From assembly GCA_016208905.1 (NCBI GenBank), contig JACQXG010000055.1, positions 1-47,284 on the forward strand: a stretch of 47,284 bases of DNA, read 5' to 3'. The notes under the pieces were generated by a model. The model was given only the letters and a program-made list of their open reading frames with translations. It was not told the DNA's origin and made no database searches. The DNA comes from Nitrospirota bacterium (GTDB taxonomy: Bacteria; Nitrospirota; Thermodesulfovibrionia; UBA6902). Shown piece by piece: positions 35,602 to 42,027 of the stretch (position 1 is its first letter; the number at the start of each line of letters is the position of its first letter). The position numbers and the translations under genes were made by a program.

Positions 35602-36624
35602 TCACTTGTCGTAGTGACACTTCCTGCACAAATCGAACATGTCCTCAACTTCAAAAGCCCAGAGATGAGGGAAGTTTGATGCATGCGGGTCATGGCAGCT
35701 CGCGCATGAAAGCTTCTTGCCTGTTCTAACAGGGTCAGGCCTGTCGCGTGTCGGATGTCCCTGAGTCGAAAATGCGTCTCCAAGCACGTGCCTCCCGCTT
35801 CCTCTGTCAGCATGACAGGTCACGCAAAGGTCCCATGTGGATTTATAAAGATTAGCCGGATATTGCGAAGAATGGGGACTGTGGCATATGGCGCATTTAC
35901 CAAGCGTAACAGGACCATGAATGAACTTCTTTGACTGCCAATCCGTTTTTTGCTCGATATGGCATCCGAAACATACTTCCGTATCAGGCTTTTTCACAGA
36001 GTATTTTGGGTCAGAATCCATATCGTGACAGCTAAGGCAGCTCCAGACAGCTACCGGACCGTGAACATACGGGGAGGCAGCAATTTTATTGTGACACGAG
36101 TAACATGTGGATGTAGCCTGAATAACTGTCTTCTTATCGAAGGTCTCAGCGATAAAAGATGTCGGACTTACGGGTCTCTTATCAGTCTCCTTCGGTTCCA
36201 GCATATGACATTCACTACACCGCGAATTCTCTCCCGCGTGAAAATAATCCTTTTTAAAACCCGCCGGTGTTTTCATATAATTGCCTACAAGATCAGACCT
36301 TCTGAAAACATTTAACGTAGTGTTGAATACCTGCTTGCCTTCTCTTGAAGCGGTTATGTCTATTTTGTTTATGCCAAGCGCTAACGGAACGGAAAAACAC
36401 TCATATTTTTTATCGGGGACAATACTTGCCTTTTCTTTATCATTGACCTTTACTGTGATCAAATCAGCAGACGCTTGAGGTACTTCCATGGAAATATTCA
36501 GAAGGTCGAATTCCATAACCGTTTTATCGGGAGGGTATTGAAGTGTGACAGCCTCAGCTTCTGCAATCCGTAAGATAATAAATGATAATACCAAAAAGGT
36601 ACAGGATAATATTTTTATTCGCAT
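35602..36624 (-). CDS. Octahaem c-type cytochrome, exported
   Basis: 340 aa. A signal peptide (1-25, ending AEAEA) is followed by an Ig-like or beta-rich domain (about 27-115), then eight CxxCH motifs between residues 135 and 340: CSECH, CYSCH, CLSCH, CFGCH, CAICH, CVTCH, CASCH and CRKCH. The spacing is of the doubled-CxxCH type found in periplasmic or extracellular electron carriers. It is third in an operon behind a 13+-haem cytochrome and a TlpA-like protein, overlapping the latter by 10 nt. Confidence 0.93.
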   Translation of the reverse strand: MRIKILSCTFLVLSFIILRIAEAEAVTLQYPPDKTVMEFDLLNISMEVPQASADLITVKVNDKEKASIVPDKKYECFSVPLALGINKIDITASREGKQVFNTTLNVFRRSDLVGNYMKTPAGFKKDYFHAGENSRCSECHMLEPKETDKRPVSPTSFIAETFDKKTVIQATSTCYSCHNKIAASPYVHGPVAVWSCLSCHDMDSDPKYSVKKPDTEVCFGCHIEQKTDWQSKKFIHGPVTLGKCAICHSPHSSQYPANLYKSTWDLCVTCHADRGSGRHVLGDAFSTQGHPTRDRPDPVRTGKKLSCASCHDPHASNFPHLWAFEVEDMFDLCRKCHYDK

Positions 36625-37622
36625 TTAGAAATGGACGACGGTAGAATTTTCTTGTCAATAAGCTTTCCGATGGCCTTCCTGTACATTTCGATTGACTTGT
36701 CCTTTTCGCCTTTCAGCTCGTAAGCCTTGCCCAGTTCGTAGAATGTCATCTGAGGATACGGATTTGCTACAGCGGCAGAATTAAGAAGTTCTACAGCCCT
36801 GTCAATATCTCCCTTTAAAATAAGCGCTCCTCCAAGGCCTGTCTGCGCATCGTGTGATTTAGGGTCAAGCTCCATGGCCTTGTTAAAAGCCTCAAGCGCT
36901 TTGTCAGCTTCTTTTGTATCAAGATACAGGTAACCGAGGAGAATATGAGATTGCAGCATTGCAGGGTCAGCATTGACAGACTTTATTGCTGTCTCTATTG
37001 CCGCGTCGAGCATTTGTGATTCAGTGAATTTCAGCGCAAGATTATACAACCTTGATGCCTCCAGAAACGATTTGTCTTTTTCCTCTTTGTGTGGTGAGAG
37101 AACTTCTTCCAGCCCGCTTTCATCTATCTCCCCGAGGATTTTTTTTATGTAACCCCTGAGTTTGGTTTTGTACGTAAGCGGATGGCTTGGGATATCATAA
37201 GCGATCAGGCCCTGCCTGTCTATAATTACGGTTGTCGGTAAAACCCTGACCCCATAATCGCTGTATATCTTCCGCTCTGTATCAATCAGCAAAGGACAGT
37301 CAATTCCATTATTCTTAAAAATCATCAGGGCCTCTTCTTTATTGTCGCTTTCTTCGATTACGCTGATTACCTCCATACCTTTACTTTTATATTTATCCAG
37401 TATATCTTTCGCGTCCTGCAAGGCAAGCAATGAGCGGTCCTGGTCAGTCCTCCAGAAAATAATAACCGTCACTTTCCCTTTATACTCTTTCAATGAAATG
37501 CTTTTCCCCTCAACCGAGTTAATAGTAAAATCAGGCGCGGCCCCGCCGTAAGATATGCTTATTGCATCGGATGCAGGTGTGAATAACAGGAAAATAGCAA
37601 GCCCCAGAATAAAAAAAATCAT
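36615..37622 (-). CDS. TlpA/thioredoxin-fold protein without active-site cysteines, fused to TPR repeats
   Basis: 335 aa. A signal peptide (1-20) is followed by a TlpA-like domain (about 25-155: APDFTINSVEGKSISL, VTVIIFW, GVRVLPTTVIIDRQG). The active-site position after FW reads RTDQDRS instead of the usual ATWCPPC, so it cannot do dithiol chemistry. Three or so TPRs follow (about 205-310: HILLGYLYLDTKEADKALEAF, FYELGKAYELKGEKDKSIEMY). In an operon between two multihaem cytochromes, it is likely a periplasmic assembly or scaffold factor. Overlaps by 4 nt upstream, 10 nt downstream. Confidence 0.9.
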   Translation of the reverse strand: MIFFILGLAIFLLFTPASDAISISYGGAAPDFTINSVEGKSISLKEYKGKVTVIIFWRTDQDRSLLALQDAKDILDKYKSKGMEVISVIEESDNKEEALMIFKNNGIDCPLLIDTERKIYSDYGVRVLPTTVIIDRQGLIAYDIPSHPLTYKTKLRGYIKKILGEIDESGLEEVLSPHKEEKDKSFLEASRLYNLALKFTESQMLDAAIETAIKSVNADPAMLQSHILLGYLYLDTKEADKALEAFNKAMELDPKSHDAQTGLGGALILKGDIDRAVELLNSAAVANPYPQMTFYELGKAYELKGEKDKSIEMYRKAIGKLIDKKILPSSISKCE

Positions 37623-38986
37623 CCGTTTATCTCCTTTTTTACCCTATCGTATTTTTTTATTTTATGACAGCCGGGAGTGCAGCTGCCTCCTGTATCCGTC
37701 TTTTGAAAGTTTACAGGGAGGTCCCAGGCGCCGAAGGGGACGGCTTCCCTTATGTGCTTCGGAAAGTTACTCGCGTGAGTTTCATGACAGGCCCTGCAGG
37801 TCCTGCCCTTTTCCGCCTTGTTGACATGTCTGAAATGAAGGTTCTCATTCCCGTTTCTGAAGTTGGTCAGTTTAGTGGTTTCAGGATTAAGAACGATTGT
37901 TTTTTCGTGGCAGCTGAAACAAAGGTTGTAGTTTTCCACTGTAAAAGGCATATAAAACGTCGAAGGATAAGGGCTTCTCAGTATTCTGAAATTTTCCGAG
38001 CCATGAGGATTGTGACATCCGGAACAGTCCTTCTGCTTTATGGGCCCGTGCTGGTCGGTATTTTCCGCCAGCCATTTTTTTATATCAGCAGTGACAGTGC
38101 CGTCAGCCTTATTGTAGGCCCTGTTATGACAGCTCAGGCACATATCCATAGGCTCCATCAACAGGTTCTTTGCAATGTTCGACATATGAGCATCATGGCA
38201 ATTGAGGCAGGACCTTTCAGTCTCCAGCGCCCCGTGTTTGACCTTTGCCTGGCTTATCTGTTCTTTCTTGTCTTTATGGCAATCCAGGCATAATGAGGAC
38301 GTTTGAGAGTTGAGCATGAACTGTTTTGCGGCGGAGTGAGGGTTATGGCAGCTGGTACATTTTTCAGAGACAGGCTTATGAACGAACTCAGCCTTATGAA
38401 TAGCTTCAGCCTTATCAGTGTGACACATAAAGCAGAGGCCCGGTCCTTCTTCTTTAAGGTTCTTCGCGTAATCAGCAGTGTGAGGATCGTGGCATGCCAC
38501 GCATCCTCCGACAGCAGCCGGGCCATGAACAAACTCGCCTGCAACCATGCCTTCATCATGGCAATTAAAACAGAGAGCGCCTCCTTTTGCCAACAGCTGA
38601 AATTTATTGGGAGATTCATGAGGACTGTGACAGGCCATGCATTCACCTTCTTCAACAGGAACATGAATGAACTTTTTGGCTTTAAATTTTTCGTGGCAGG
38701 AATAACAAATTTTGGCAAGGTCTTTTACTTTTCCGAATTTATTTTTTTCAGGTTTGTCTGCATGTTTTGAAAGTTCGCCATGACAGACAATGCATTCGCC
38801 TGCAGCAACAGGGCCATGAACATATTTTGCCTTCCCCATAGTCGCATGGCATTGTGATGTTATACATGAATCTTTAGGTTTTTCAACCGCCTTTTCCTGA
38901 GCTGATGTGGTCCTGCCGGTCAATCCTGCCGCAATTAAAGTGACAATTGAAAATAGAAAAAGAATAGTAGTAGTTTTCTTGTTCAT
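37619..38986 (-). CDS. Multihaem c-type cytochrome, 13 CxxCH plus two atypical sites
   Basis: 455 aa. The signal peptide (about 1-29) ends TTSAQ. I count 13 CxxCH motifs (CIVCH, CYSCH, CMACH, CFNCH, CVACH, CFMCH, CTSCH, CLDCH, CLNCH, CLSCH, CSGCH, CFSCH, CRACH). In addition there is a Cx4CH (CITSQCH) at the N-terminus and a Cx3CH (CTPGCH) at the C-terminus. Repeated FVHGPV and CxxCHxPH spacing indicate a tandem-repeat cytochrome of the doubled-CxxCH family, a likely periplasmic electron conduit. First gene of the three-gene cytochrome operon. Confidence 0.95.
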   Translation of the reverse strand: MNKKTTTILFLFSIVTLIAAGLTGRTTSAQEKAVEKPKDSCITSQCHATMGKAKYVHGPVAAGECIVCHGELSKHADKPEKNKFGKVKDLAKICYSCHEKFKAKKFIHVPVEEGECMACHSPHESPNKFQLLAKGGALCFNCHDEGMVAGEFVHGPAAVGGCVACHDPHTADYAKNLKEEGPGLCFMCHTDKAEAIHKAEFVHKPVSEKCTSCHNPHSAAKQFMLNSQTSSLCLDCHKDKKEQISQAKVKHGALETERSCLNCHDAHMSNIAKNLLMEPMDMCLSCHNRAYNKADGTVTADIKKWLAENTDQHGPIKQKDCSGCHNPHGSENFRILRSPYPSTFYMPFTVENYNLCFSCHEKTIVLNPETTKLTNFRNGNENLHFRHVNKAEKGRTCRACHETHASNFPKHIREAVPFGAWDLPVNFQKTDTGGSCTPGCHKIKKYDRVKKEING

Positions 38987-40281: not shown

Positions 40282-42027
40282 TCAATACTCACGATACTCA
40301 TTATCGGCAAGATTTTTAAACTTCGTATATTTTTCCATAAATGCGAGTTCAACTACCTTTGTCGGTCCGTTCCTCTGTTTTGCTATATCCAGTTCAGCAA
40401 TCCCTTTCTTCTGTGAATCCTGCTTTTTATAATATTCATCTCTGTAAAGAAATAATATTGTATCAGCGTCCTGCTCAATAGCGCCTGACTCTCTCAAGTC
40501 GGCAATCATCGGGTTTTTTCTTTCACCCCTCAATTCACAGCTTCTGTTAAGCTGGCTGATGACTATAACGGGCACGGACAGGTCTTTTGCAAGCGCCTTC
40601 AACGAACGTGAAATATCAGAAATGACCTGTTCTCTGGCAATATTTGAATTAGATCCGCTCATAAGCTGCAGATAATCGATGACGATCAGGTTTAACCCGT
40701 GTTCCGCCTTCAGCCTTCTTGACTTGGCCCTGATATCAAGTATTGAATTAAATGAATCGTCTATATATATCTTTGCCTCAGAAAGCTTGCCTGCCGCGTT
40801 AACGAGTTTTCTGTAATCTTCCTTGCTGTGATATCCTGAACGCACAGCCTTTGAATCAACTTCCGCCTCAGCGCACAACATCCTCAGGACAAGCTGTTCT
40901 TTCGTCATTTCAAGGCTGAAAACAGCTATCGTATCTTTCTCTTCAATAGCAGCATGTGCAACAATATTCAGGCAGAAAGCGGTCTTCCCCATTCCGGGCC
41001 TTGCTCCAATTACTACTAAATCTCCGGGATGAAAGCCTGTTGTGGCCTCATCAAGTTCGTCAAAGCCCGTTGCCAGACCTGTTATACGTTCTTTCTTGTC
41101 AAAAAGCCTGTCAACAAGCTCAATAGTATCTTTTACTACGCTCTTTATGTGGACATATGTCTGCCTGACCGCCTTTTCAGAAATATTAAAAATCTTAGTT
41201 TCTGCCAGGTCCAGAAGTTCATGTACATCCTGATTGGTATCATAACTTATCGTTACAATTTCCGTAGCAGTAGAAATGAGATTTCTCAGTATGGACTTTT
41301 CTTTAACAATTTTGGCATGGTATTTCGCATTCGCAGACGTCGGCACCAGATTTACAATTGAGCTTAAATAAGAGGCCCCCCCTACTTCTTCAATCTGCTC
41401 TTTCCGGTTCAACAGTTCCGTAAGGGTGATTAAGTCGATCGGCTCGTTCTTTTCATAAAGTTCAAGCATTGCAGTAAATATCTTTTTGTGGGCGTCTTTA
41501 TAAAAGTCGTCCGGTGTCAGATGCTCTATCGCAGTGGCAATGGCCTCGTTTTCAAGCAGCACTGCCCCGAGAACAGACTGCTCAGCTTCAATATTCTGGG
41601 GCGGCAGACGGTCAAGGCCGGTCACCGGTTTGAACGAACCGCCTTCCACATATGTACCGAGACGTTTTATCGGCTCTTCAAGGATTATCTTGCGTTTGTC
41701 TATTTCGACTCCCTGTTTGGCAATTTCTTCAGCTATGTCCTTAGAGGTCACTGAGCCGAACAGTTTATCTTCTTCCCCTGCCTGGGCCTCTATACTGAGA
41801 GTCATTGAGGACAACTGCTTCGCCAGGTCCTCTGCTGATTGTTTGACCTTTTTGGCTTTTACAAGGATAATTCTTTTCTCGTGTTCAAACTGTTTTATGT
41901 TTTTCGGATTTGCTTCCACTGCAAGGTTCCTCGGTATCAGATAATTTCTCCCGAATCCTTTCTTCACGTTTACGATGGCACCTATTTCACCGAGATCTTT
42001 CACGTCTTCTTTTAATATAACTTTCAT
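40282..42027 (-). CDS. Ribosomal protein L9 (C-terminally truncated) fused in frame to replicative DNA helicase DnaB
   Basis: 581 aa in one open frame. Residues 1-126 are L9: MKVILKEDVKDLGEIG, KKGFGRNYLIPRNLA, FGSVTSKDIAEEI, KRLGTY. The last ~20 residues of normal L9 and its stop are missing. Residues 136-581 are DnaB: LDRLPPQNIEAEQSVLGAVLLE, Walker A GARPGMGKTA, Walker B LIVIDYLQLMSG and SQLNRSCELRGERKN, full length. rplI and dnaB are neighbours in many bacteria. A GTG at 41623-41625 preceded (13 nt) by GGAAGGCGG could let DnaB start separately. Either a real fusion or an assembly deletion. Confidence 0.9.
   Translation of the reverse strand: MKVILKEDVKDLGEIGAIVNVKKGFGRNYLIPRNLAVEANPKNIKQFEHEKRIILVKAKKVKQSAEDLAKQLSSMTLSIEAQAGEEDKLFGSVTSKDIAEEIAKQGVEIDKRKIILEEPIKRLGTYVEGGSFKPVTGLDRLPPQNIEAEQSVLGAVLLENEAIATAIEHLTPDDFYKDAHKKIFTAMLELYEKNEPIDLITLTELLNRKEQIEEVGGASYLSSIVNLVPTSANAKYHAKIVKEKSILRNLISTATEIVTISYDTNQDVHELLDLAETKIFNISEKAVRQTYVHIKSVVKDTIELVDRLFDKKERITGLATGFDELDEATTGFHPGDLVVIGARPGMGKTAFCLNIVAHAAIEEKDTIAVFSLEMTKEQLVLRMLCAEAEVDSKAVRSGYHSKEDYRKLVNAAGKLSEAKIYIDDSFNSILDIRAKSRRLKAEHGLNLIVIDYLQLMSGSNSNIAREQVISDISRSLKALAKDLSVPVIVISQLNRSCELRGERKNPMIADLRESGAIEQDADTILFLYRDEYYKKQDSQKKGIAELDIAKQRNGPTKVVELAFMEKYTKFKNLADNEYREY

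Follow-up and report, generated by a model that had tools for sequence, protein, structure and literature searches.

A TlpA-TPR protein without the CxxC redox centre recurs beside multihaem cytochrome genes of Nitrospirota and is a candidate apocytochrome chaperone

A System I review treats it as an open question whether CcmG and ResA serve apocytochromes purely as reductants or as holdases too, and the earlier work on the holdase role relied on engineered Cys-to-Ser mutants (PMC3601427). According to the same review, CcmG with one or both cysteines replaced by serine still permits some cytochrome c formation, apocytochrome and thiol-less CcmG may interact in vitro, and apocytochrome binding is thought to be done by the TPRs of CcmI and NrfG (PMC3601427). 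A second report describes SirG, encoded in one gene cluster, as an apocytochrome chaperone that is required along with CcmI for a cytochrome whose haem site is atypical (PMC6976685). A third source describes CnoX as a holdase in which C-terminal TPRs follow an N-terminal domain of thioredoxin type that has SXXC in place of a functional CxxC (PMC8129009).

The locus studied here lies in a window, the whole stretch of DNA that was analysed, of 47,284 nucleotides from a Nitrospirota bacterium (GCA_016208905.1, contig JACQXG010000055.1, our C42 of a 2.19-Mb genome that is 86% complete). Three consecutive minus-strand genes encode a 455-aa cytochrome with 13 CXXCH motifs and probably 15 haems (37619..38986; ORF, Pfam and motif count), a 335-aa TlpA-TPR protein with an ATG start (36615..37622; ORF, Pfam, AlphaFold2 model and fold matches), and a 340-aa cytochrome with eight CXXCH motifs, preceded by an N-terminal region that has no haem motif (35602..36624; ORF, Pfam and motif count). 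An earlier note on this DNA had proposed that overlapping start and stop codons link the middle gene to both cytochrome genes, and it does share 4 nt (37619-37622) with the gene upstream of it and 10 nt (36615-36624) with the one downstream. A promoter and terminator scan was uninformative, with no terminator-like sites and 13 promoter-like sites against 7.1 expected. Elsewhere in the window, at 40282-42027, L9-like (rplI) and DnaB-like sequences share one 581-aa ORF (gene names assigned by eye). The nearest relatives have these as separate ORFs of 154 and 465 aa, and the long ORF is either an in-frame fusion or an assembly artefact.

The middle protein begins with an N-terminal export signal at about residues 1-20 (37563..37622, minus strand), recognised by eye from a putative FTPASDA/IS cut and seen as a hydrophobic helix in the model. 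It is followed by a TlpA/ResA-like thioredoxin-fold domain at residues 27-165 (37128..37544, minus strand; Pfam, model and fold matches), where Pfam AhpC-TSA matches residues 26-142 at 2e-19, above its cut-off. The C-terminal half matches TPR families of Pfam, with the TPR domain placed at residues 184-324 (36651..37073, minus strand). The AlphaFold2 model has a pLDDT of 87.2 and a pTM of 0.50, and thus the single domains can be trusted and their relative orientation is unsure. In fold comparisons, residues 22-165 of the model match ResA/DsbE-like chains (3gl3, Z 21.9; 4nmu, Z 21.0; ResA, Z about 20), and residues 184-324, approximately, match TPR chains. The positions of CxxC align to Q61 and S64 in the context WRTDQDRS (QDRS, residues 61-64, 37431..37442, minus strand), so that the redox centre of the ResA/CcmG type is absent. 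The earlier note had described just this arrangement, a TlpA-like domain with RTDQDRS in place of CxxC, preserved fold motifs and appended TPRs, and these points were all borne out. Its term "cysteine-less" holds for the CxxC motif but not for the whole protein, which contains Cys109 and a penultimate Cys334.

We surveyed 395 Nitrospirota genomes for this arrangement. The TlpA-TPR protein as query matched 26 genomes at E <= 1e-30, the 8-haem gene as bait matched 41, and the 13-haem gene matched 57 genomes at 66 places, of which 65 neighbourhoods were read (the one left out, G249:C91, lies at a contig end). Recurring association with cytochromes had been set as a test beforehand, and a same-strand TlpA gene was found within 5 kb in 46 of the 65 loci (43 of 56 genomes). 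Relatives with an intact CxxC in the same position were also looked for in these loci, and an alignment-based count gave CxxC in 0 of 49 readable cluster TlpA domains. In the family to which the window belongs, 15 of 21 listed genomes carry the protein, and exactly these 15 carry the 13-haem gene. The 19 loci without a neighbouring TlpA comprise, by script thresholds, five with the 8-haem gene and 14 with neither, one of which (L231) nonetheless has an adjacent 8-CXXCH gene. At L231, L233, L236 and L238, the TlpA-less pair of a 13-haem and an 8-CXXCH gene has two lipoprotein-like genes behind it, and the ends of these resemble NHL-type repeats by eye. Directly downstream of many clusters (L079, L081, L166, L167 and others) lies a histidine kinase with one CXXCH, often joined by an NtrC-like regulator.

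A scan of named genomes returned 43 loci, of which 34 (L082-L115) showed kinship beyond a bare TPR match; the other nine (L116-L124) matched in the TPR part only and were set aside, and L106 and L112 lack the active-site stretch. These kin come from MAGs titled Nitrospirae, Nitrospiraceae or Thermodesulfovibrionia, with other labels on L085, L089, L091 and L100. Two are from MAGs titled Deltaproteobacteria, with the same two cytochromes alongside, and the tree labels show these two as Myxococcota. Since the scan used one short TPR peptide pattern, the wider taxonomic spread is undersampled; the TlpA-TPR protein without CxxC recurs across families and probably across two phyla. Paralogues were also found away from any 13-haem gene (L063, L065-L068, L070, L101, L103-L105), in the company of 4-haem cytochromes, an SCO-like gene and NrfD-like genes (names by eye). 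One of them (L065) overlaps the SCO-like gene, which has a CPDVC motif. A literature search at record level found no earlier description of such a protein.

As a control, a ResA profile was run in seven cluster-bearing genomes, and 30 of its 42 matches had their loci inspected. Seven of these were cluster-type proteins and 23 lay outside the clusters. All 23 have CxxC or UxxC, the latter in six cases through an in-frame TGA, indicating that thiol loss tracks the cluster and not the organism. Eight genomes that lack a cluster TlpA gave 49 matches, 30 of them with loci, and the 25 TlpA-like ORFs inspected there all have CxxC. The TGA codons stand at the first active-site cysteine (FWATWUPWC and similar) in L253 (own genome, C57:833-1189), L255, L261, L264, L266 and L270, and judging from this motif these genes are likely to encode selenoproteins.

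A tree of 60 rows placed all domains without CxxC on one side of a branch with support of 100/99, and the grouping stands in a tree of 46 rows with the active-site loop removed, making it unlikely that active-site residues alone produced it. The tree gives the grouping and makes no statement on which side is ancestral. The clade thus both separates from the CxxC TlpAs and adjoins the 13-haem gene. Three subclades each form a group: A with SxxS, B with [QH]xxS, which is the window's type, and C, the 422-aa type. Type A clusters run in the order 13-haem gene, TPR-only protein, one or two TlpA(SxxS)-TPR genes and 8-haem gene, and type B clusters in the order 13-haem, TlpA-TPR, 8-haem; L114 and L115 hold a 14-CXXCH cytochrome, A, B and the 8-haem gene in a single run. 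Family f24 (L073-L077) departs from this order: behind the B gene come genes for a large membrane protein, a repeat protein (NHL-like by eye) and a cytochrome with 14 CXXCH motifs and long spacers. The third type occurs at L241 and L242 as proteins of 422-423 aa with the loops ISKS/TDKS, 7 nt after another 13-haem paralogue.

The best reading of the protein, in our view, is that of a putative periplasmic apocytochrome chaperone, or holdase, dedicated to the flanking cytochrome pair, to which we assign a probability of roughly one half. The TlpA-TPR protein would hold unfinished haem proteins during haem attachment, with the thioredoxin-fold groove and its intact cis-Pro loop binding CXXCH segments of the unfolded cytochrome without a mixed disulfide, and with the TPR superhelix holding the chain or passing it on to CcsBA, the synthase of System II. 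Reduction would be left to the ordinary CxxC (or Sec) TlpAs encoded elsewhere in the genome. System II parts, ResB and Cytochrom_C_asm, were found in the 86% complete own genome, where CcmB and CcmH gave no match, and the organism appears to use System II. The earlier note had suggested a scaffold or chaperone for multihaem assembly. This is retained here as the predicted function, with partial support: neither of the two outcomes that the note named as refuting it was seen, but the 19 loci without a neighbouring TlpA, together with the finding of only CxxC among the inspected ORFs of the eight genomes, argue that the protein is not generally required. The 13-haem/8-haem pairs without it and the paralogues away from the 13-haem gene likewise point to an accessory role.

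If this holds, the SxxS proteins are apparently the Cys-to-Ser mutant made by nature and kept beside one cytochrome pair in many families. They would offer a concrete system for isolating the holdase role and a lead on how System II assembles proteins of about 15 haems.

The main rival is a purely structural role, in which the protein would be a stable part of a periplasmic electron conduit and would join the mature 15-haem cytochrome to the mature 8-haem one, perhaps with the dead TlpA face taking one cytochrome and the TPRs the other. TPRs are general docking domains, and the fixed order of 13-haem, TlpA-TPR and 8-haem genes, with their overlaps, would suit a fixed stoichiometry. However, the two cytochromes also occur as a pair without the protein, and the protein occurs away from both of them (L063, L065-L068). 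We regard an adaptor as less likely than the holdase, though as the most serious of the alternatives.

The partner cytochromes bring in a narrower form of the holdase reading. The earlier note had counted 13 or more haems in one cytochrome and eight in the other, in agreement with the 13 upstream and eight downstream CXXCH motifs that we find; the upstream protein adds a CX4CH site at residues 41-47 (CITSQCH, 38846..38866, minus strand), present in 61 of 65 homologues, and a CX3CH site at residues 436-441 (CTPGCH, 37664..37681, minus strand), present in 65 of 65. Its 30 cysteines are exactly twice these 15 sites (13 CXXCH, CX4CH and CX3CH), and in 56 of the 65 13-haem homologues the cysteines of the mature part number exactly twice the haem sites. 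From these counts, the 13-CXXCH cytochrome is probably a 15-haem protein. Proteins similar to it with 20 and 22 CXXCH (L229, L232) are each adjoined by a TlpA-TPR protein without CxxC, and the own genome has a second 8-haem paralogue (L157, C9:11603-12622), 53% identical and with no TlpA gene nearby.

The effect of the putative holdase would perhaps be greatest at the CX4CH and CX3CH sites of its 15-haem partner, and in the strict form the protein would be needed only for haem attachment at one or both of them, comparable to NrfG and SirG for CXXCK or CX12NKGCH. This strict form is in keeping with the high conservation of both sites and with SirG as a precedent (PMC6976685). It is nevertheless doubtful, because lineages without the protein (L233-L238) retain both sites: five TlpA-less 13-haem/8-haem pairs keep CX4CH and CX3CH, as exemplified by lineage f25, which has the pair and both unusual sites and no such TlpA nearby. 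Conversely, the "Deltaproteobacteria" homologues L114 and L115 have canonical motifs near the N-terminus (CLSCH and CLGCH, respectively) instead of CX4CH and yet carry two TlpAs without CxxC.

Another alternative is that the protein still works through a thiol, with a flexible C-terminal Cys334 that would take over from the lost CxxC and act on the thiols of apocytochromes. Of 37 non-redundant members from the window's order, 32 end in Cys-x and five do not, among them L099, which a contig end truncates. This penultimate cysteine is often the only one of the mature protein. In the operon copies, though, the cysteine codon overlaps the 8-haem start, and in the window its TG lies inside the ATG of the 8-haem gene (36621..36623, minus strand; AA-ATG-C), so that the overlap with an ATG or GTG start alone forces TGC or TGT. 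Family f24 lacks the cysteine as well, as do both "Deltaproteobacteria" copies and each of the 25 SxxS proteins. Several paralogues without an 8-haem gene (L063, L067, L068, L103, L107) do keep it, L063 and L067 even without ATG or GTG there, which would allow a minor role. A redox role of Cys334 is thus largely accounted for by the overlapping start codon, and we consider this alternative very improbable.

Conservation and substitution rates speak for selection rather than decay. An alignment of 20 rows from the window's order keeps S64, P129 and T131 in all 20 and R63 in 19, with position 61 being Q, H or L; Pro129 (37236..37238, minus strand), at the thioredoxin-fold cis-Pro position, is also invariant in alignment A1. 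For the TlpA domain, six pairs give a dN/dS of 0.06-0.17, similar to that of the TPRs (0.08-0.13), with 0.03-0.08 for the cytochromes, all rough values because dS is partly saturated. A decaying TlpA reductase kept solely for its TPRs, which the loss of CxxC and the TPR-only protein at the corresponding position of SxxS lineages might suggest, is hardly credible and was rejected in view of the invariant residues, a dN/dS near 0.1, the intact fold and the lack of CxxC in all three subclades. The TlpA-TPR arrangement is real, recurrent and under selection.

Among described systems, CnoX (YbbN) resembles the window protein in architecture alone, a thioredoxin-type domain with C-terminal TPRs. The window protein belongs to the TlpA family, is exported and is tied to cytochromes, whereas CnoX is cytoplasmic. 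PF14561 TPR_20, which we take to be the CnoX TPR family, scored 17.4 bits, under its cut-off of 25, and the CnoX structure 3QOU was not among the matches listed (50 in each of two fold lists). CnoX may serve by analogy, not by demonstrated kinship, as a precedent for a redox-dead thioredoxin-TPR holdase. The ResA-like WAxxUGC long protein family NF041054 aligns to residues 27-256 at 42.4 bits against a cut-off of 300 and differs, by its family name, in having a Sec-containing active site.

CcmI, NrfG and SirG of System I share TPRs that adjoin the cytochrome served, and PF23914 (TPR_CcmH_CycH) falls on residues 217-316 at 34.3 bits, under its cut-off of 42; in the window protein, however, the TPRs are fused to a TlpA domain, and the organism appears to be a System II one. 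With ResA and CcmG (DsbE) the protein shares the fold (Z about 20-22), the FW and cis-Pro motifs, export and the link to cytochrome c, but it has no CxxC and bears a TPR tail, and its NCBIfam scores of 75.7 bits for ResA (cut-off 170) and 23.3 for DsbE (cut-off 123) are both below threshold. The holdase reading would make it a natural split: what CcmG/ResA do as holdases would be separated from what they do as reductases and combined with the task of CcmI, NrfG and SirG in System I. We tentatively raise the possibility that these proteins represent a third class of chaperone for cytochrome c, formed by an ancient thiol-free clade combining a CcmG/ResA-like domain with CcmI-like TPRs, which would work beside the System II synthase and serve one 15-haem lineage with two non-canonical sites in at least two phyla.
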